A DNA stretch of 64,000 nucleotides from NCBI RefSeq assembly GCF_009827315.1, contig NZ_WTYF01000004.1, positions 1,612,001-1,676,000 of the forward strand, written 5' to 3'. Both the position numbers and the translations under genes were made by a program. This DNA comes from Qipengyuania gaetbuli. Its GTDB lineage: Bacteria > Pseudomonadota > Alphaproteobacteria > Sphingomonadales > Sphingomonadaceae. Below the pieces are notes generated by a model. The model was not told where the DNA came from. It was given only the letters and a program-made list of their open reading frames with translations, and ran no database searches. Positions 31,067-39,130 of the stretch are shown here, in pieces. Numbering within the stretch: position 1 is the stretch's first letter; each line of letters starts with the position of its first letter.

Positions 31067-34000
31067 TTAGCTGTCGATCGGGAAGGTCAGGGTGCGCCGG
31101 TAGCCAGTATCGACCACCTCACCAGAAATCGTCCCCGATAGCTGGCGGGCCGTAACCTCGAGCAGGCGCGTGCCGAAACCAACGCCGGTGTCGTTCTCTG
31201 ACACCACGCTGCTCTCTTCCCAGTCGATCCGCAGATTCTCGCCATCCCGTTCCCAGCGGACGTGAACCGCCCCGTCCTGGTCCCGCAACCCGCCATGCTT
31301 GGCCGCATTGGTCGCCCATTCGTGCAGGATGAGCGCCAGCGAAGTGAGCTTGGAAGTGGGCACTTCCACGTCCGGACCCTCGAAACCCATTTCCTGTTGG
31401 TTATGGGAGGGCGCCAGCACCGTATCGAGCAGTTCGCGCAAGGTAACCGACGGCCCGTCCGTCTGCCGCGAAGTCAGCGAATGCGACCGGCCGAGCGCAT
31501 GGATCCGGTCGCGCAGGTCTTCGGCGAAACTGTCGAGATCGGTCGCCTCGCGGCGCGAGATCGACACCATGGCTGCGATGATCGCAAACAGGTTCTTCAC
31601 GCGGTGGTTCATTTCGCGCAGCAGGATTTCGCGCTGGGCCAGCGTCTCGCGCTCGCTGGTGATATCGTAGGTGACGCCTATGAACTTGGCGCCCTCGCTG
31701 CTCATGATGCGGCGGCCAAGTCCGTGCAGGTAGCGGGTGCCACCGTCCTTCAGCGGAAGGGCGAAGACCTCGTCGTAATCGCTCTCGCCGTCCATCGCGC
31801 GGCGAAGCGCATTGTTGACCCGGTCGCGGTCCTCCGACGGCAGGCGGGCAAGGATCGGCTCCATGGTGTTGCCCTCGTCCTCGTCGAGATCGAGCAGCTC
31901 GCGCTCGGTCTTGTCGAGAACGGTCTTGTCCGAGGTAGGCTCGTATTCCCACACGCCGATCTTTGCGACTTCCAGCGCGAGGCGCAGGCGTTCGCGTTCC
32001 TCGCGCAGGTTCTGTTCCATCGACAGGGCTTCGGTCACATCGGTGAAAACTAGGGTGGCGCCATCGATGGCCCCGTCGATCTGGCGATAAGGGATGGCCC
32101 TGATGATATATTCGCGCGAACCGTCCTTCGACGACGCACGGTATTCTTCGGTCAGCCCTTGCTCTGCCGCAGCGCGGGTGAGCGCGACGAAATTGTCTTC
32201 GGCCAGACTTTTGGGCAACTGATCGATTGGGCGACCCAGATCGCGTTCGTCGATCCCGAATATCGCTTTCACTGCATCGGTGAAGCTGCGCAGATTGAGT
32301 TTCTCGTCCACCACCAGGACCATCAGCTGCGTGGAATCGACGAAATTCTTGAGGTCGGCGTTAGCGACGGTGACCTGGTCGACCTTGGTCTTCAGCTCGT
32401 CATTGACCGTAGTCAGCTCCTCATTGGTGGACTGGAGCTCCTCGTTCATCGACATCATTTCTTCGTTGGAGCTCTTCAGCTCCTCGTTGGTCGTTTCGAG
32501 CTCCTCGACCGTCGAGCGCAGGCGATGGCGCGTGGCTTGCAGCTCTTCCTCGAGGAACTGCAGCTGGCCGTCGCCGACCTCGAATTCGTCCAGCTCCTCG
32601 TCCGTGAACGGTTCCAGCGCACCGGTCTCGCGGATGACGATCAGGTAGCCGCCCGGCGCCACCGGTTCCACCAGCACCGATGCGGTAATCCGCCCGAATT
32701 CGGTACTGATCGCAAGGTCCCGCTTGATGATCCGGCCTTGCCCCTCCGACACCTGGCGCAACATCGGGCCGATGATTTCGCGCAGGCCCGGCCGGGCGAG
32801 CGTGGGAACGTGCACCGTGCGTTCGAGCCGGTCGGGGAATTCGAGATAGCGTCCGGCCGCTCCCCATTTCTGCAGCAGCGTGCCTTCGCCATCGACCAGG
32901 AAGGTTACCGGCGCATAGCGTTCGGCGATGCGCCGCAGCGCCGCCACTTCGGCCGAGCCCGACTGGATCGCGGTGCCACCTGCCATGCTGCTTTCGCGGC
33001 GGCGGACATAAGTCGGGGACTGGCCCCGCCCCATCTGCAAATTATAGTTGCTCTTGACGTTCCTGCGCCGGAACAGCCGCGCTCCCTGGTTGAGCGTTTC
33101 GAACAGGTCCTCGAACCGGCCGATACCTTCCGATGTCCCGAGGAAGAGGTAGCCGCTGTCGCGCAGGGAAAAATGGAACAGCGGCAGGACGTGCCGCTGC
33201 AGGTCCTCGTCGAAATAGATGAGGAGGTTGCGGCAGGAAATGAGGTCCACCTTGGAGAAGGGCGGATCGCGCACGACGTTGTGCAGGCTGAAGCGGACCA
33301 GGTCGCGGATTTGCGGTGTGACGGAAAAGGTGTCCGTTCCGCCGATGACATAGCGGTGCTGGTACTCGTTCGGAATGTCGACCAGCGCGGACACCGGATA
33401 AGTCGCACTGCGCGCGATATCGAGCATCTTGTCGTCGATATCGGTGGCGAAGATCTGCAGGTAGGGGCGCTTCTCGTACCGTCGCATCGCTTCGGCAAAA
33501 AGCATGGCGATCGAATAGGCTTCCTCGCCGCTGGAACAGCCCGGCACCCAGACACGCAGTTCCTGCCCGTCGCGCGACTTGCGCACCAGTTCGGAAATCA
33601 CGAGTGCGTTGAGCGCCTCGAAATCGTTCGCATCGCGGAAGAACTGCGTGACGTTGATCAGCAGGTCCTGGAACAGCGCCTGGCATTCATCGTCGTCGCT
33701 GCGCATCCGGGCGATGTATTGCCCCGCATCCTCGATCGAGAGGACCTGCATCCGGCGTGCCACGCGGCGCACCAGTGTCGAGCGCTTGTAGCGCGAAAAG
33801 TCATGCCCGACGGTTTCGCGCAGCACCTCGCACAATTCGTCCAGCCGGTCGGCGACTTCCTGGGCCTCGTCCTCCAGCCCGTCGTGCGAATGCCGGGAGA
33901 AGAATTCCCAGATGGCCCCGATCATGTCGGATGGCGGTGCGACGATATCGACGAGGCCGGTACCGATGGCCGAGACTGGCATCCCGTCATAGCGCGCCGT

Positions 34001-34471
34001 GTCCGGCTGCTGCGCCACGGCCAGGCCGCCATTTTCCTTGATAGCGCGCAGGCCGCGGCTGCCGTCGGCGCCCGTCCCCGAGAGGATGACGCATGCGGCC
34101 TTGTGCTGCCGATCCTGGGCGAGGCTGTCGAAGAAATCGTCGATCGGGCGGCGCTGGCCGCGGGGGTCGGCGAACTCGGTCAGCTCCAGCGTGTTGTCAT
34201 GGATAGCAAGCCCGTGCGCAGGCGGGATCACGTAAATGTGATCGGGTTCGAGCGCTTCGCCGCCTTCCGCCTGCGTCACTTTCATCTCGGTGTAGCGTTC
34301 GAGCAGCTGCGCCATCAGCGATTCGTGGGTCGGATCGAGATGCTGGACGACAACGAAAGACATGCCGGTATCGCCGCTATTTCCGGCGAAGAGTTCGCGA
34401 ATGGCCTCGAGCCCGCCTGCTGATGCGCCGATGGCGACGACCGGGGGCAGGCTGTCTTTCTCTTCGCTCAT
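31067..34471 (-). CDS. CheB-CheR-coiled coil-PAS-HWE histidine kinase fusion
   Basis: 1,134 aa in one chain. Residues 1-185 are a CheB methylesterase with Ser17 (GASAGG), His44 (QHLDP) and Asp136 (GTGADG), all intact, and no receiver domain. About 205-480 is a CheR methyltransferase starting at DFSRYKRSTLVRRVARRM. A long coiled coil of repeated NEEL/NEEM units follows around 640-710. Two PAS-like regions then lead to an HWE kinase: His956 in MNHRVKNLF, HEWATNAAKHGG near 1050, and the RIDWEES Trp-Glu near 1084. The pattern is known from alphaproteobacterial CheB/CheR-PAS kinases. The start overlaps the LOV gene's stop by one base (TGATG), so synthesis is coupled. No chemoreceptor, CheA or flagellar genes are near, so the methyl-transfer domains may act on another target. 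Confidence 0.93.
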   Translation of the reverse strand: MSEEKDSLPPVVAIGASAGGLEAIRELFAGNSGDTGMSFVVVQHLDPTHESLMAQLLERYTEMKVTQAEGGEALEPDHIYVIPPAHGLAIHDNTLELTEFADPRGQRRPIDDFFDSLAQDRQHKAACVILSGTGADGSRGLRAIKENGGLAVAQQPDTARYDGMPVSAIGTGLVDIVAPPSDMIGAIWEFFSRHSHDGLEDEAQEVADRLDELCEVLRETVGHDFSRYKRSTLVRRVARRMQVLSIEDAGQYIARMRSDDDECQALFQDLLINVTQFFRDANDFEALNALVISELVRKSRDGQELRVWVPGCSSGEEAYSIAMLFAEAMRRYEKRPYLQIFATDIDDKMLDIARSATYPVSALVDIPNEYQHRYVIGGTDTFSVTPQIRDLVRFSLHNVVRDPPFSKVDLISCRNLLIYFDEDLQRHVLPLFHFSLRDSGYLFLGTSEGIGRFEDLFETLNQGARLFRRRNVKSNYNLQMGRGQSPTYVRRRESSMAGGTAIQSGSAEVAALRRIAERYAPVTFLVDGEGTLLQKWGAAGRYLEFPDRLERTVHVPTLARPGLREIIGPMLRQVSEGQGRIIKRDLAISTEFGRITASVLVEPVAPGGYLIVIRETGALEPFTDEELDEFEVGDGQLQFLEEELQATRHRLRSTVEELETTNEELKSSNEEMMSMNEELQSTNEELTTVNDELKTKVDQVTVANADLKNFVDSTQLMVLVVDEKLNLRSFTDAVKAIFGIDERDLGRPIDQLPKSLAEDNFVALTRAAAEQGLTEEYRASSKDGSREYIIRAIPYRQIDGAIDGATLVFTDVTEALSMEQNLREERERLRLALEVAKIGVWEYEPTSDKTVLDKTERELLDLDEDEGNTMEPILARLPSEDRDRVNNALRRAMDGESDYDEVFALPLKDGGTRYLHGLGRRIMSSEGAKFIGVTYDITSERETLAQREILLREMNHRVKNLFAIIAAMVSISRREATDLDSFAEDLRDRIHALGRSHSLTSRQTDGPSVTLRELLDTVLAPSHNQQEMGFEGPDVEVPTSKLTSLALILHEWATNAAKHGGLRDQDGAVHVRWERDGENLRIDWEESSVVSENDTGVGFGTRLLEVTARQLSGTISGEVVDTGYRRTLTFPIDS

Positions 34472-35028
34472 CAGTCCCCCTTCAGCCCCGACATCCGCAG
34501 TTTCGCGATGATCGAGTGGCTCGATGCCAGCTGCTCGTAAGTACCGAGCATGACGATCCCCATCTCGCCGGCAATCGAACCGAGCTGGCGGATATCCTGT
34601 TTCAGCGCCGTTTCGTAGATTTGCAGGGCTTCTTCGCCGTGCCTTCTGATTTCGAACTGCGACCCGAATATGTAAGCGATTTCATTCCTGTATTGCAACT
34701 TGGTCATGTAGACGAGGTTGAGAAAGGGCGAACCGTCGGCCCTGACATTGGGCACGAGGAACTTGCCGTCCTCTATTCTGTCATTGGCGATGAAATCGCG
34801 CATCCGCTGGCGAACCGGACCGGCCCCGCCTGGCGGCTGCAGGAAGCGGCAATTGCGTCCGAGGCACAGCTCCGGCGCATACTGGGTTACCTGGCAGAAG
34901 GCTTCGTTGACCCCGATGAGCGGCGCGTCGGGCAGGCGCACGTCGGCCAGCGTCAGCGGCACCTTGCTGCGCTGCATCAGGTCACCGAACCCGGGCGCGG
35001 GTTCGCTGTCTTCCTTCCACCAGTACAT
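34471..35028 (-). CDS. short LOV-domain blue-light photoreceptor
   Basis: 185 aa. The flavin-adduct motif GRNCRFLQ is intact with Cys60. The FMN-contact residues are also present: Asn of NEAF, Asn of FLNLVYM and Gln of FGSQFEI. The domain should bind FMN and form a Cys-flavin adduct in blue light. The roughly 60-residue helical tail (EEALQIYETALKQDIRQLGSIAGEM...) has no kinase catalytic domain or HTH and may dimerise or dock onto the kinase. The ATG at 35028 is used, though a GTG at 35046 and longer forms are possible. A weak TTGTGA-N17-TAGGCT promoter lies at 35091-35063 on the minus strand. It is coupled to the kinase gene. Confidence 0.88.
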   Translation of the reverse strand: MYWWKEDSEPAPGFGDLMQRSKVPLTLADVRLPDAPLIGVNEAFCQVTQYAPELCLGRNCRFLQPPGGAGPVRQRMRDFIANDRIEDGKFLVPNVRADGSPFLNLVYMTKLQYRNEIAYIFGSQFEIRRHGEEALQIYETALKQDIRQLGSIAGEMGIVMLGTYEQLASSHSIIAKLRMSGLKGD

Positions 35029-35137
35029 AGAGCCCGACTCGCTCACTCCCCCTTGGCCCTGAAGCCTATGCAAGGCCCCGCGAATTCACAAGAAATCTCG
35101 CCAAAGCTGCCCGCCTGCGAAAAATTTGCCGGTCGAT

Positions 35138-35164
35138 GGATTAAGCGCGCACCGGCGTCCGTTT
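35138..35164 (+). promoter_or_regulatory. ECF-type promoter GGATTAA-N15-CGTTT (site 1)
   Basis: GGATTAA (35138-35144), 15 bases, CGTTT (35160-35164). It lies 50 bp upstream of the ATG of the 114-aa exported protein. Same boxes and spacing as sites at 36892 and 38201, and extended likeness to the latter (ATGGATTAAGCG; CCTTTC-A/G-AGCG after the -10). Attribution to the nearby ECF sigma factor is inference. Confidence 0.7.
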
Positions 35165-35214
35165 CCCTTTCAAGCGACCGGCATCGCCGTGCGCGCCAAA
35201 AGGAGAAACGACAC

Positions 35215-35559
35215 ATGAACAAGCTTGCCACCCTGCCGCTCTTCGCCCTCGGCCTCGCCACAGCCGCGACCGCCGCCGTGCCGATGCTGCACGAGGAACA
35301 GGTCGCCCGCGCCGAGGAAGCGCTGATCATCACCACGCCGATCGCCGGGATCGAGAACAGCCTGTGGTTCGATTACCGCATCGACATCACCGAGGCGCAG
35401 AAGGAGCTGACCAGCGACCTGCGCCGCGCCAGCGATATCGAGGACCGCCGTGATGCGTGGGAGGAATACGCCCACGAACTGAAGCACGAGCGGATCGACT
35501 ACATCGAGGAAATGGCCGAGCGCGGATACCGCATGGGCCAGGTCATCTTCGTCGACTGA
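35215..35559 (+). CDS. exported small hypothetical protein, putative ECF target
   Basis: 114 aa. Signal peptide MNKLATLPLFALGLATAATA. The mature part is strongly charged and helical (LTSDLRRASDIEDRRDAWEEYAHELKHERIDYIEEMAERG), then a short RMGQVIFVD tail. No Cys and no known family. AAAAGGAG sits ten bases before the ATG. The GGATTAA-N15-CGTTT site and a strong downstream terminator make it a monocistronic unit. A periplasmic stress or chaperone-like role would fit its control but is not shown. Confidence 0.8.
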   Translation: MNKLATLPLFALGLATAATAAVPMLHEEQVARAEEALIITTPIAGIENSLWFDYRIDITEAQKELTSDLRRASDIEDRRDAWEEYAHELKHERIDYIEEMAERGYRMGQVIFVD

Positions 35560-35610
35560 CCGACAGCAACGTCCCGGGCCGCGCCAGTCCCTCGGCGCGG
35601 CCATCCCCCG

Positions 35611-35648
35611 AAGGAAGGACCGGAAGACCCGCCGGTCCTTCCTTTTTT
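35611..35648 (+). terminator. intrinsic terminator
   Basis: A 13-bp perfect stem, AAGGAAGGACCGG (35611-35623) with CCGGTCCTTCCTT (35632-35644), loop of eight, then a T run to 35648. A second hairpin, GGCCGCGCC (35577-35585) with GGCGCGGCC (35594-35602), lies just before it. They end the small exported protein transcript and could also block the convergent anti-sigma message. Confidence 0.9.
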
Positions 35649-35691
35649 CGTGCGTGAATGGTGGAGGGGAGATGACCCGCCGGGCAGTAGC

Positions 35692-36390
35692 TCAACGCCA
35701 GCCCTGCTCGCGCGCTGCCTGCTCGCCCTGTGCATCGAGCGCCGGTCCCGCTGCCATCTCCTGTGCCAGGGCCAGGATCTCGGCATCGCCTGCGCCGGCC
35801 ATGCGGTAATCGGTCGAGGCGCCTTCGCTGCCCTCGCCAAGTGCCTCCAGCTTCCACCCCGCCTCGTCGCGGCAGGCAATCCCGCCGCCCGCGCTGGCGC
35901 TGAAGGCACGGCAATAGCGGCCTTCCTCGGTGCGGAACGACAGGAGCACGCGGGTTTCGTCTCCCGGCGACTGGTCGGCGACGAGCCGGTCGTCGAGCAC
36001 TCCGGCAAGCTGGGTGTCGGCATAGGCCGGTGCTTCGCTGCCCTGGCCCGGCAGGAACACCGCAAGCGCCAGCGATGCGGCAAGCGCCGGTCCGGCGATC
36101 CAGCCCCAGTGCGGCAGGCGCCGCCTGCTCTCGCGCCGCTCGCGGGCCGCGGCGAAGTCGACCACCTCGGCCGGTTGCGGCCGGGACAGCATGGCAGCCA
36201 GCCGGTCGGGCACGGGCTGGTCGAGGACAGGCGAATAATGGCCGGCCAGCATGGCCTTCAGCGATTTGTGCCGTGCCACCTGCTGCGCCAGTTCGGGATC
36301 GGCCTTAATCGCAGCGGCGACCTGCGCCTCGCGTTCGCCCGACAGTTCGCCATCGGCAAACGCGGCGATGTCTTCGGGGGTAATCGTCAC
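35692..36390 (-). CDS. membrane-bound anti-sigma factor
   Basis: 232 aa. The N-terminal helical anti-sigma domain (ITPEDIAAFADGELSGEREAQV...) lacks the zinc-binding HxxxCxxC. One membrane helix (WIAGPALAASLALAVFLPG) is followed by a periplasmic C-terminal region with two Cys (GRYCRAFS, GIACRDEAG) that could form a redox-sensitive disulphide. It follows the sigma gene with an ATGA overlap, the usual sigma/anti-sigma coupling. It is expected to hold the sigma factor at the membrane until an envelope signal releases it. The signal and release route are unknown. Confidence 0.85.
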   Translation of the reverse strand: MTITPEDIAAFADGELSGEREAQVAAAIKADPELAQQVARHKSLKAMLAGHYSPVLDQPVPDRLAAMLSRPQPAEVVDFAAARERRESRRRLPHWGWIAGPALAASLALAVFLPGQGSEAPAYADTQLAGVLDDRLVADQSPGDETRVLLSFRTEEGRYCRAFSASAGGGIACRDEAGWKLEALGEGSEGASTDYRMAGAGDAEILALAQEMAAGPALDAQGEQAAREQGWR

Positions 36391-36875
36391 GATGCTTCTC
36401 CGAGCATTGCCATCAGCGCGTCGCGGCCGCGCACGAGGCGGGAATTGAGCGTGCCGACCGGGCAGCCGACGATTTCGGCCGCCTCCTTGTAGGCATAGCC
36501 TTCGACCATCACGAGCAGCACGGCCTCGCGCTGGTCTTCCGGCAGTTTCTGCATGGCGCGATCGACGTTGGACAGTTCGACCGCGGCTTCCTGCGCGCCA
36601 TCGCCGCCGACGCCGACGCCGGCCTCCTCGGCCACGAAGGTCTGCAGGCTGCGCGTCGCCTTACGGCCCTCGTCGATCCAGATATTGCGCATGATCCGAT
36701 ACATCCAGCTGTCGAGCCGCGTGCCTTCTTCCCAGCGGGACCGGTTGGCCAGCGCGCGCTCAATGGTCATCTGGCAGAGATCGTCACCGTCGGACGGATT
36801 GCCGGACAGCCCGATTGCGAAACGGCGCAACCGGGGCAGCAGGGCCAGCAAGTCTTTCTCGAACGATGTGTTCAG
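36387..36875 (-). CDS. ECF sigma factor (RpoE-like)
   Basis: About 162 aa with sigma region 2 (LLPRLRRFAIGLSGNPSDGDDLCQMTIERAL, shown here in part; SWMYRIMRNIWIDEGRK for -10 recognition) and region 4 (LPEDQREAVLLVMVEGYAYKE, VGCPVGTLNSRLVRGRDAL helix-turn-helix). No ATG or GTG fits. The family-like N-terminus FEKDLLALLPRL runs upstream of the TTG at 36851, and a CTG at 36875 lies eight bases after GGAAGG, so CTG is the best start. A minus-strand GGATGAA-N15-CGTTT lies 20 bp upstream, suggesting autoregulation. Confidence 0.88.
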   Translation of the reverse strand: MNTSFEKDLLALLPRLRRFAIGLSGNPSDGDDLCQMTIERALANRSRWEEGTRLDSWMYRIMRNIWIDEGRKATRSLQTFVAEEAGVGVGGDGAQEAAVELSNVDRAMQKLPEDQREAVLLVMVEGYAYKEAAEIVGCPVGTLNSRLVRGRDALMAMLGEAS

Positions 36876-36891
36876 CGTCTCTGCCTTCCAG

Positions 36892-36918
36892 GGATTAAAC
36901 GGACGAGCGCGTGCGTTT
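36892..36918 (+). promoter_or_regulatory. ECF-type promoter GGATTAA-N15-CGTTT (site 2, toward the S8 protease)
   Basis: GGATTAA (36892-36898), 15 bases, CGTTT (36914-36918), 41 bp before the protease ATG. It overlaps the opposite-strand site at 36897-36923, so one 32-bp near-palindrome serves both directions. Confidence 0.7.
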
Positions 36919-36923
36919 CATCC
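36897..36923 (-). promoter_or_regulatory. ECF-type promoter GGATGAA-N15-CGTTT (site 3, toward the sigma gene)
   Basis: On the minus strand GGATGAA (36923-36917), 15 bases, CGTTT (36901-36897). One mismatch in the -35 relative to the other sites. Transcripts would begin near 36890, leaving a leader of about 15 bases that carries GGAAGG. Confidence 0.6.
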
Positions 36924-36959
36924 ATGCTTAATGCGTTTTAGTCGAAGAACGAGAGGACG

Positions 36960-38180
36960 ATGCGAGTTTTTTCCCTGCTTTGCGCCGTACTGGCACTGGT
37001 TACCGCGCCGCTGGCCGCGCAGGTCGCGCTGCCGCGTGTCCAGCTGCCGCAGGTGGGGCCGGTTGTGGGCGAAACGCTCGACACGCTCGACGAGGCGCGC
37101 GCCGGAGTGCAGCGCACGGTCGAACGGCTCGCGCGCGACCGCCTGCGCACGATAGACCGGCTGGTGCGCCGCAATGCCGATGCGATCGAGTACGATGCGG
37201 CAGGCGCACCCGCGCGGCGCGGCGAGCTGCTGGTGATGGACGTTTCCGCCAATGCACTCAGCCCGGCCCTGGAGGCAGGCTTTACCGTCCTTTCGCGCGA
37301 AGAGGTCGAGGGGCTGGATCTCTCGCTCATGCGCCTCGGCGTGCCCGAGGGGATGGACCTTGCAGAAGCGCAAGCGGCGCTCGCCCTCCTCCTGCCGCAG
37401 GCCCAGGTCAGCGCCGACAACCTCCACTTCCAGTCGGGCACCGGCAATGGCGCGGTGCTGGCCATCTCGGCGCAAGGTAGCGCGGGCAGCGCGGCGCCGG
37501 TCGGCATGATCGACGGCGCGCCCGGGCCTGCGGTAAAGGTCACGGAGACGCGCGGCTTTGCCGCTGGCGCGCCCTTCCCGAGCCACCACGGCAGCTCGGT
37601 TGCATCGCTGCTCGCCCATGCAGGCGCGGGCACGATCCGCGTGGCGGACGTGTACGGCACCGACAAGGCAGGCGGCAACGCGCTCGCCATGGCCAAGGGG
37701 CTGGGCTGGCTGGTTGCGCGCGGGAGCAAGGTGGTGACGATCAGCCTAGTAGGACCGCGCAATGCGGTGCTCGAACGGGCGATCGGCGCAGCCCAGCGCA
37801 AGGGCGTGGTGGTGGTCGCGGCGGTCGGCAATGACGGCCCGGCCGCCCCGCCCGCCTATCCGGCCTCCTACGACGGCGTGGTTGCCGTGACTGCGGTCGA
37901 CGGCAAGCGTCGCGCGCTGATCGAGGCGGGCCGCGCGCTCCATCTCGACTATGCCGCGCCGGGCGCAGACATCTACGGCCGCAATGCCAAGGGCAAGCGC
38001 ATCGGCCTGCGCGGTACGTCCTTTGCCACCCCGCTGGTCGCGGCCCGCCTGGCGCGGGCCTTGGCGCAGGGCCGCAGCTGGCGCGCCGCGCTCGATGCAG
38101 AGGCCGTGGACCTAGGACGCAAGGGCCATGACGACACCTATGGCAGGGGCCTTGTCTGCGGCGGTTGCACCGGACGCTGA
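36960..38180 (+). CDS. exported S8 (subtilisin-like) serine protease
   Basis: 406 aa. Signal peptide MRVFSLLCAVLALVTAPLAA. About 160 residues of helical N-terminal region follow, then a peptidase S8 domain with a complete set: Asp185 (GMIDGAPG), His210 (PSHHGSSVAS), oxyanion Asn291 (VGNDGP), Ser354 (GTSFATPLVAA). A CGGC pair near the end could bind metal or form a disulphide. It is divergent from the ECF sigma gene and shares the overlapping promoter site, so it is probably a target. It may cleave envelope proteins, possibly the anti-sigma factor, which is speculation. Confidence 0.9.
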   Translation: MRVFSLLCAVLALVTAPLAAQVALPRVQLPQVGPVVGETLDTLDEARAGVQRTVERLARDRLRTIDRLVRRNADAIEYDAAGAPARRGELLVMDVSANALSPALEAGFTVLSREEVEGLDLSLMRLGVPEGMDLAEAQAALALLLPQAQVSADNLHFQSGTGNGAVLAISAQGSAGSAAPVGMIDGAPGPAVKVTETRGFAAGAPFPSHHGSSVASLLAHAGAGTIRVADVYGTDKAGGNALAMAKGLGWLVARGSKVVTISLVGPRNAVLERAIGAAQRKGVVVVAAVGNDGPAAPPAYPASYDGVVAVTAVDGKRRALIEAGRALHLDYAAPGADIYGRNAKGKRIGLRGTSFATPLVAARLARALAQGRSWRAALDAEAVDLGRKGHDDTYGRGLVCGGCTGR

Positions 38181-38200
38181 AATTTTTTTCGCGCTTTTAT

Positions 38201-38227
38201 GGATTAAGCGCCGCAGCCCACCCGTTT
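38201..38227 (+). promoter_or_regulatory. ECF-type promoter GGATTAA-N15-CGTTT (site 4)
   Basis: GGATTAA (38201-38207), 15 bases, CGTTT (38223-38227), 57 bp upstream of the next ATG. Its flanks match site 1 beyond the boxes. Confidence 0.7.
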
Positions 38228-38284: not shown

Positions 38285-39130
38285 ATGAAGAACCTCATGC
38301 TTGCCGCTTCGGCACTCACCCTGATTGCAGCCCCTGCCCACGCCCAGCTGCTGGGCGGTGGCGGCCTGTCGGGCGTCACCGGATCGCTCAATGGCACGGT
38401 CAATTCTACCCTGCGCGCACCGACCGAAACGCTGCGTTCGACCACCCGCGGCACGCTGCGCGGCGATGCCGCCACGCGCGGCAACCAGAATGTCGACCGC
38501 AAGAACGGCAGCGTCGCCATCGACCGCAGCGTCGACACCAGCCTCGATGCCACCACCAGCCAGCTGCTCGGCACGCCGGCAGGCGAGGCTTCGGGCAATG
38601 CTTCGGGCTCTGCCAATGCCTCGGGCTCGGGCAGCGCCAATGCGCAGCTGATCGGCACCGATGCCGTGACCGGCGCAGTCCAGGGCACTGCCGCCCGGGC
38701 GCGCGAGACCGCCTCGAGCGTCCGCAATATCGCCACCCCCGCCGTGGGTTCGGCCCGCGACCGCCTGTCGGGTGCAACGGCACAGGCCGGCAGCCTCGCC
38801 GGTTCGGCAAGCGGCGCTGCACAGGGCGCAGGCATGATCGATAACGGCGTGCTGGCGCTGGCAGGTAGCGGCGCGGCCCAGGGCGAAGGCGTCTTCGCCG
38901 TCGCGCCGGGCATGCCGGTCCAGCTGCCTTCGGGCGAACAGCTCGGCACCGTGCGCGACATCGTTGCCACGCGCAGCGGCGAGATCCGCCAGCTGGTCGT
39001 CGACACCAAGGACGGCCTGACCACCCTTCCCGCCGGCAGCCTGACGGCCAGCGGCACCGCGCTCATCGCGGGCCAGGCCAGCGGCTCGGCATCCAACGAG
39101 GCTCCCGCCGAGGCGAGCGGCACCGAATAA
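38285..39130 (+). CDS. exported Ser/Gly/Ala-rich protein with PRC-barrel-like end
   Basis: 281 aa. Signal peptide MKNLMLAASALTLIAAPAHA. A low-complexity middle rich in Ser, Gly, Ala, Thr and Asn (GNASGSANASGSGSANAQL and similar) gives a flexible, probably unfolded stretch. The C-terminal 70 residues, VQLPSGEQLGTVRDIV to LTTLPAGSLTASGTAL, look like a PRC-barrel-type strand set. AAAGGA lies seven bases before the ATG. It is likely an envelope structural or adhesive protein under the ECF promoter, with a terminator after it. Alternative: a secreted scaffold without barrel. Confidence 0.8.
   Translation: MKNLMLAASALTLIAAPAHAQLLGGGGLSGVTGSLNGTVNSTLRAPTETLRSTTRGTLRGDAATRGNQNVDRKNGSVAIDRSVDTSLDATTSQLLGTPAGEASGNASGSANASGSGSANAQLIGTDAVTGAVQGTAARARETASSVRNIATPAVGSARDRLSGATAQAGSLAGSASGAAQGAGMIDNGVLALAGSGAAQGEGVFAVAPGMPVQLPSGEQLGTVRDIVATRSGEIRQLVVDTKDGLTTLPAGSLTASGTALIAGQASGSASNEAPAEASGTE

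Follow-up and report, generated by a model that had tools for sequence, protein, structure and literature searches.

A putative two-way promoter between an ECF sigma factor operon and a protease gene in Qipengyuania gaetbuli and its relatives

According to the parts of Lang et al. (2018; PMC6180224) that concern the extracytoplasmic function (ECF) sigma factor RpoE6 of Sinorhizobium meliloti, rpoE6 is divergent from the serine protease gene SMa0142, an arrangement widely conserved in group ECF26; overexpression of RpoE6 raises SMa0142 (log fold change, 4.7) and ecfR6 (3.6), and no function is defined there for RpoE6. On that account, the sigma-protease module is already known. Here we describe a similar locus of Qipengyuania gaetbuli, located in a 64,000-nucleotide stretch of contig NZ_WTYF01000004.1 (positions 1,612,001 to 1,676,000; hereafter the window, whose own numbering is used throughout). 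As in the RpoE6-EcfR6-SMa0142 locus, the sigma gene is followed by the gene of an anti-sigma factor that appears to be membrane-anchored, and the pair is divergent from a serine protease gene, here of the S8 (subtilase) family. Between them lies a 32-bp inverted repeat, which we interpret as two ECF promoters fused into one element. Taken as a whole, the best explanation (probability roughly 0.8) is that the sigma factor drives four promoters, two of which are fused, and that the output of sigma is held low. The predicted regulon and the fused promoter are in themselves highly probable and, together with the start codon of sigma and the overlap of the sigma and anti-sigma genes, are supported by comparison with relatives.

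The initial annotation had placed the motif GGATKAA-N15-CGTTT at four sites, and a re-check of the sequence confirmed the coordinates as well as the spacer of 15 in every case. On the plus strand, the sites precede the genes of a 114-aa exported-looking protein (p114; site 35138–35164, gene 35215–35559), the exported-looking S8 protease (site 36892–36918, gene 36960–38180; PF00082, E 9.9e-17), and a Ser/Gly-rich exported-looking protein (SG; site 38201–38227, gene 38285–39130). On the minus strand, the site at 36923–36897 precedes the sigma gene (36387–36875). These are the genes that had been named as facing the motif; signal peptides, as well as the membrane segment of the anti-sigma factor, were judged by eye. 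The sigma gene encodes 162 aa with Sigma70_r2 and Sigma70_r4_2 both above the Pfam cut-off, which is the sigma2 plus sigma4 architecture of ECF factors. A scan of both strands of the 2,780,525-base genome found only four exact matches, all at this locus, where 0.13 per genome would be expected from independent bases, and a reversed control pattern had none. The motif is thus not frequent genome-wide, and a chance origin of the four sites is ruled out. One-mismatch matches were found at 11 places elsewhere in the genome and were rejected as further regulon members: nine fall within a frame that, on one strand, runs for some 400 codons or more with no stop, and L009 and L013 (L and G numbers are our handles for loci and genomes) each have one box letter altered.

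The four sites are better read as two single promoters and one fused two-way promoter. The sites of p114 and SG are single, with the exact motif in the window and a relaxed form in some of the relatives. The two central sites together form one palindrome, GGATKAAACG-N12-CGTTTMATCC, represented in the window by GGATTAAACG-N12-CGTTTCATCC (36892–36923). Its rightward boxes, facing the protease gene on the plus strand, are at 36892–36898 (-35) and 36914–36918 (-10), and its leftward boxes, facing the sigma gene on the minus strand, are at 36923–36917 (-35) and 36901–36897 (-10). The -35 of each strand (GGATKAA) thereby has two bases in common with the -10 of the other strand read backwards (AAACG).

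The palindrome is conserved in relatives. Related loci were collected by a scan of genome contigs, from which the best 80 of 203 confirmed sigma loci were compared, a set that leans to close relatives (the closest sigma protein in it, from Qipengyuania huizhouensis, is 95% identical). Three loci (L057–L059) repeat L056 over the compared stretch and were dropped, leaving 77 distinct loci and, with the window, 78. All 78 possess the palindrome with at most two of 20 letters off (20/20 in 68 loci, 19/20 in seven, and 18/20 in three), and the distance between the arms is always 12. Whole-genome searches allowing up to two mismatches gave matches in 100 of 396 genomes of the order (the reversed control matched in three) and in 16 of 289 genomes of the class, the window's own included; some of these genomes may be of the same species as loci of the sigma scan. 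Inspection of 42 distinct sites, that is, 50 loci (30 tool-picked and 20 hand-picked) minus eight sites fetched twice (L141/L174, L143/L170, L144/L171, L145/L172, L148/L167, L149/L168, L150/L169, and L154/L173), placed 40 with a sigma relative on one side and an S8 relative on the other; L126 and L152, the two exceptions, are two-mismatch matches. Outside the order, the inspection covered the three zero-mismatch sites, 12 other genomes having two-mismatch matches; all three sites lie between sigma and S8 genes, and the sigma proteins are 46, 48, and 53% identical to that of the window. The palindrome is therefore a good search signature, as every zero-mismatch palindrome that was followed up marked the module, also outside the order.

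Near-perfect inverted symmetry around a constant 12-bp centre would also suit an operator of a dimeric regulator, in which case the element would not be a promoter pair at all. We consider this highly improbable. Boxes of the same letters and spacing are found singly, and without the symmetry, at SG and p114, where AAACG follows the start of the -35 in only five of 71 cases and the second inverted half in none of 71. Since the single promoters do not possess the second half, the symmetry is a property of the divergent promoter and is not inherent in recognition by sigma. In addition, both arms carry a -10-like CGTT at promoter spacing, and besides sigma and anti-sigma no conserved regulator was seen in the four-gene core, the flanks not having been searched systematically.

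Three further observations concern the copy number of the module and the protease side of the element. Some genomes possess the module in two copies (L016/L029, L064/L072, G071, and G272, the last as L159/L160), examples being Qipengyuania huizhouensis, with sigma identities of 95% and 89%, and Croceicoccus ponticola. In Erythrobacter donghaensis (L056–L059, G425), the locus is found on four contigs, two of them very short, and is identical over the 360 bases compared, which reflects either amplification or an assembly artefact. The plus strand at 36924–36941, where transcription of S8 is expected to begin, has the block ATGCTTAATGC, followed in the window by an in-frame TAG, which may make it a five-codon leader; the block is found again in many, though not all, close relatives.

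In its promoters, the locus departs from two of the systems that it resembles most. As given in the parts of Lang et al. (2018) on RpoE6, the -35 of RpoE6 is GGAATA, compared with GGATKAA here, and the published ECF26 consensus (-35 GGAATA, -10 GT) is not matched in its -35 at any of the four sites, although the -10 CGTTT contains GT. The mapped rpoE6 start has RpoD/RpoH-like motifs (PMC6180224), unlike the predicted sigma promoter of the window; about 40 target genes are described for RpoE6, compared with four exact sites here; and the rpoE6 start codon is, by reading, not CTG, the codon predicted for the window sigma. The sigma protein encoded on pSymA of S. meliloti is 45% identical to the window sigma over residues 19–159. 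We call the window sigma ECF26-like and do not call it a member of ECF26.

The other system is that of the general stress factor EcfG (ECF15), and it is conceivable that EcfG, and not the local sigma, drives the promoters described here. EcfG promoters, GGAAC-N16/17-CGTT, are of a similar type, with a CGTT-type -10 and a GGA-type -35 as in the window, and the sigma2 region of the window sigma has a further Pfam match, to the family 'Sigma2 domain of PhyR'. Targets of RpoE6 and RpoE2 (ECF15) overlap in S. meliloti, and the letters GGAAC appear in RpoE2 promoters, as far as the portions of PMC6180224 on these factors go (Table 1 for the latter). However, the -35 at all four sites is GGATKAA and not GGAAC, and the genome contains just the four exact sites. 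The anti-sigma factor, too, differs from the EcfG system: it is 232 aa long, has a putative membrane segment, and matches NepR below the cut-off only. Among 119 genomes of the family, 32 carry a sigma orthologue with an identity of 52% or more (33 copies), and the palindrome, at most two letters off by reading, lies beside all 33 copies. A role of EcfG as the driver is scarcely credible. In the same 119 genomes, the exact motif never exceeds four matches per genome, and many of the single matches, among the matches listed, look like chance occurrences in coding sequence. Four sigma paralogues of lower identity (in G111, G002, G041, and G013) were also checked; three have no palindrome, and that of G111 has a GGAA form.

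This GGAA form, in which both arms carry GGAA in place of GGAT, occurs mostly in one genus. Searching for GGAAKAAACG-N12-CGTTTMTTCC with at most one mismatch, we found it in 13 of 296 genomes of the order. One genus accounts for 12 of these genomes and a second genus for the remaining one, and each of the 13 sites is flanked by sigma and S8 genes; the search of 289 genomes of the class gave a single match (L216), which is not. Over 138 site records, in which eight sites are counted twice, the fourth base and its partner in the other arm are T/A in 124, A/T in nine, and other combinations in five. Eight of the nine A/T records come from one genus and the ninth is the 44%-identical paralogue in G111 (L203). 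Two independent shifts from GGAT to GGAA are likely, and we claim no more. The single promoters offer one parallel: in G042, p114 is on another contig and its promoter-like site reads GGAA, as in the sigma promoter of that genome. With regard to the protein, replacement of Leu143 with valine in region 4 was tried as the specificity determinant and rejected, for it fits the one genus and fails in L159, L160, and L203. Residue 148, also in region 4, is valine in most GGAT-type sigma proteins and alanine in all nine of the A/T type, including L203; it is a possible specificity residue, but two events at most stand behind it and we make no claim.

The predicted targets were compared across the 77 related loci. 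Neighbouring genes matching those of the window at E below 1e-8 in the fetched DNA were an anti-sigma gene in 77, a divergent S8 gene in 77, SG in 74, and p114 in 40. The relaxed motif GGAT-N18-CGTT was present upstream of sigma in 77/77 and of S8 in 75/77, and upstream of the anti-sigma genes, which served as an internal control, in 0/77. The spacing is fixed as well: the 763,772 bases of the related loci contain 189 exact motif matches with a spacer of 15 and none with spacers of 13, 14, 16, or 17. Moreover, the motif accompanies p114. In Blastomonas (L080 and L087), p114 is found on the other side, beyond SG, and the exact motif has moved with it; in these two and in four loci of Sphingobium and its kin (L081, L084, L086, and L092), where p114 is moved or strand-flipped, GGAT-N18-CGTT is retained upstream in all six. 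Even in G111 and G047, where p114 is unlinked and stands 1.6 Mb and 1.15 Mb, respectively, from sigma, the gene has this site upstream. In the 119 family genomes, p114 was found in 19, sigma in 32, and both in 15 (Fisher p = 2.7e-7, relatedness ignored). The initial annotation had proposed that the ECF factor drives its own gene and three exported proteins. The unique local motif, the fixed spacing, the association with p114, and the change of the motif along with the sigma promoter in one genus speak for this proposal, and the local ECF regulon is well supported by the relatives, with near-universal sites at sigma and S8; for SG and p114 it holds in part, as the motif precedes SG in 43 of 74 and p114 in 28 of 40 related loci. 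The role as an envelope-stress module, likewise put forward in the initial annotation, is conjectural: the proteins have an exported look, and RpoE6, the one relative that has been studied, has no function defined (PMC6180224).

Autoactivation is common among ECF factors, and the anti-sigma factor usually gets the credit for keeping this feedback in check. The locus suggests two further candidate brakes on autoactivation, both conserved across genera: a two-way promoter expected to be exclusive and a CUG start of sigma. In the mechanism that we propose, sigma would recognise GGATKAA-N15-CGTTT at the sigma/anti-sigma operon and at the S8 protease, SG, and p114 genes. The anti-sigma factor would hold sigma until a signal reaches its C-terminal domain, perhaps via a cysteine pair, whereupon the freed sigma-polymerase complex would fire the p114 and SG promoters and the two-way element. 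Rightward firing would give the protease and leftward firing sigma and anti-sigma. Because each -35 overlaps the inverted -10 of the other strand, one 32-bp element could be read either way, and its geometry suggests that a polymerase-sigma complex bound in one orientation would keep out a second in the other. If so, each event in the protease direction would be a lost event of autoactivation, which would damp the positive feedback; since both directions use the same 32 bp, leftward firing would be limited by rightward firing at high activity, and the loop would be less steep than with a private promoter. The CUG start would in addition lower the amount of sigma per message relative to anti-sigma, whose relatives mostly start with AUG. 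Exclusion, damping, signal, and the role of the exported proteins are what we infer from this arrangement.

Precedent for exclusion comes from bidirectional sigma-70 promoters. In the portions of Warman et al. (2026; PMC12825309) that deal with symmetric sigma-70 promoters, a polymerase bound in one orientation shuts out the other, and competition, where it takes place, goes with reduced noise. The likeness lies in pseudo-symmetric DNA to which polymerase can bind in either orientation, as the sequence here would allow. The architecture is different, as the sigma-70 promoters described share a symmetric -10, whereas the element here has two separate -10 boxes, 12 bp apart, each overlapping the opposite -35; furthermore, the proposed reader here is an ECF sigma, whose own gene is among the two targets. 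We consider with some reserve, at somewhat less than even odds, that exclusion, with damping, is a selected function. With the same reserve, the element may have been selected as a one-or-other switch that, combined with a CUG-started sigma and a mostly AUG-started anti-sigma, forms a dosage device flattening the response and lowering noise; the joint change of both arms would then reflect sigma and its two-way promoter evolving together. Neither a fused ECF promoter, the GGAT specificity, a CUG start in an ECF gene, nor the retention of the motif at unlinked p114 genes was found in print among open-licence papers.

A simpler account is that two ordinary promoters stand back to back in a short intergenic stretch, their symmetry arising from shared letters and exclusion having no selected role. 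As the same sigma reads both ways and a -35 can share letters with an inverted -10, a compact layout would become symmetric by itself, and we give this account close to an even chance. Against it, the arm distance is 12 in 78/78 loci, and the architecture survives the change of both arms, even though the intergenic stretch could have lengthened. This constancy argues against drift and is not proof of a function in exclusion.

Several observations weigh against our proposal of a damped sigma regulon, or narrow it. The back-to-back account gains from the five sigma-70 two-way promoters tested in the relevant portions of PMC12825309, where polymerases do not compete at basal activity; because basal firing is too low there, exclusion may be relevant only when the locus is strongly induced. 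The palindrome itself is absent from the S. meliloti, Paracoccus, and Aminobacter loci that share the sigma-S8 arrangement (best match, 13/20), including the S. meliloti locus, in which both published promoter sequences were found. GGAT-N18-CGTT is not found upstream of SG in 31/74 and of p114 in 12/40 related loci. Among 13 copies of p114 examined in other genomes, six have it and seven do not, the latter being G042 with its GGAA form, the second copies of G001 and G108, and those of G037, G041, G055, and G095; a sigma orthologue is missing from these last four of the 19 p114-bearing genomes. Finally, relatedness inflates all of the locus counts.

Bacterial genes rarely start with CTG. From the predicted -10 to residue 9, however, the sigma frame of the window contains no ATG, GTG, or TTG, and the start is most probably the CTG at 36875–36873. 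CTG occupies residue 1 in 63 of the 78 loci; 13 of the other 15 have TTG, GTG, or ATG at this place or within two codons, and L066 and L077 have no clear start. A standard start elsewhere, either later in the frame or upstream, is the alternative: of the 63 CTG loci, 47 have an in-frame ATG, GTG, or TTG ahead of residue 15, five of them upstream of residue 1. Nevertheless, 58 of the 63 lack a standard start from the -10 to residue 5 (the exceptions are L019, L030, L051, L064, and L072), and 16 lack one as far as residue 14. Phe5 is invariant in 63/63 with variation between TTC and TTT, and residue 6 is Glu in 58/63 with variation between GAA and GAG; this synonymous variation indicates that the stretch is translated. 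The residue-1 leucine codon is CTG in 63/63, compared with 67% CTG among leucines at residue 13, and AAGG precedes the CTG by 8–9 nt in 49/63. In Q. flava (L040), an ATG appears two codons upstream and the CTG is changed to CTA. RefSeq itself uses CTG as the sigma start in L181. These observations render a start at another codon improbable, and it is very probable that the sigma gene starts at CUG. On a tree of the 78 sigma proteins, CTG is found to either side of the midpoint root; it changes 10 times, at least seven of these changes being forced by supported branches. As CTG is often missing at the sigma start of more distant relatives, it characterises a clade. The point matters for annotation: in a plasmid record (L179; palindrome at 2951–2982), RefSeq starts sigma at an ATG at 2953, 48 nt upstream of the CTG and inside the gene's own predicted -35, which is probably wrong.

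The anti-sigma gene (35692–36390, minus strand) starts with GTG in the window and overlaps the sigma stop by 4 nt. The same overlap was found at 77/77 loci, a count that leans on our rule of taking the candidate start nearest the sigma stop; by this rule, the start codon in the relatives is ATG in 68, GTG in eight, and TTG in one. The protein matches anti-sigma families weakly, below cut-off. Its model has N-terminal helices and a C-terminal sheet (mean pLDDT, the predicted local distance difference test score, 85; low at residues 102–107 and 112–118). Cys160, Arg161, Cys173, and Trp179 are invariant in 77/77 aligned sequences, and the C-terminal domain that contains the two cysteines is presumably periplasmic. 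In the model, Cys160 and Cys173 are on adjacent strands; a disulphide between them is a lead only. By eye, the pair is kept in EcfR6 of S. meliloti and in the Paracoccus and Aminobacter relatives, and is missing from the anti-sigma factor beside another S. meliloti sigma gene that has no S8 neighbour (L182). Two-cysteine sensing has been proposed for ECF16 anti-sigma factors, an unrelated group (PMC8315932, in the part concerning them). That the anti-sigma factor described here responds to thiols or redox state is no more than a reasonable guess.

SG has a weak PRC-barrel match (19.7 bits compared with a cut-off of 21.2). No Pfam or NCBIfam match was found for p114, and among the 120 listed of its 460 relatives none has a Pfam domain; its AlphaFold2 model (mean pLDDT 85) is a helical hairpin, with helices at residues 26–35, 49–71, and 75–102. 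The p114 relative (contig C35, 2700–3600; L186) of G037, where no sigma matched at E 1e-30, has GGAAGCC-N15-CGTTG 47 nt upstream, and this site may be read by another sigma. Adjoining the locus, on the minus strand at 31067–35031, are the genes of a 1134-aa CheB/CheR/PAS/HWE histidine kinase fusion and of a small PAS protein. The best NCBIfam matches of the latter, below cut-off, are blue-light (LOV) kinases and YtvA-like photoreceptors, and the sequence GRNCRFLQ was read in it by eye.

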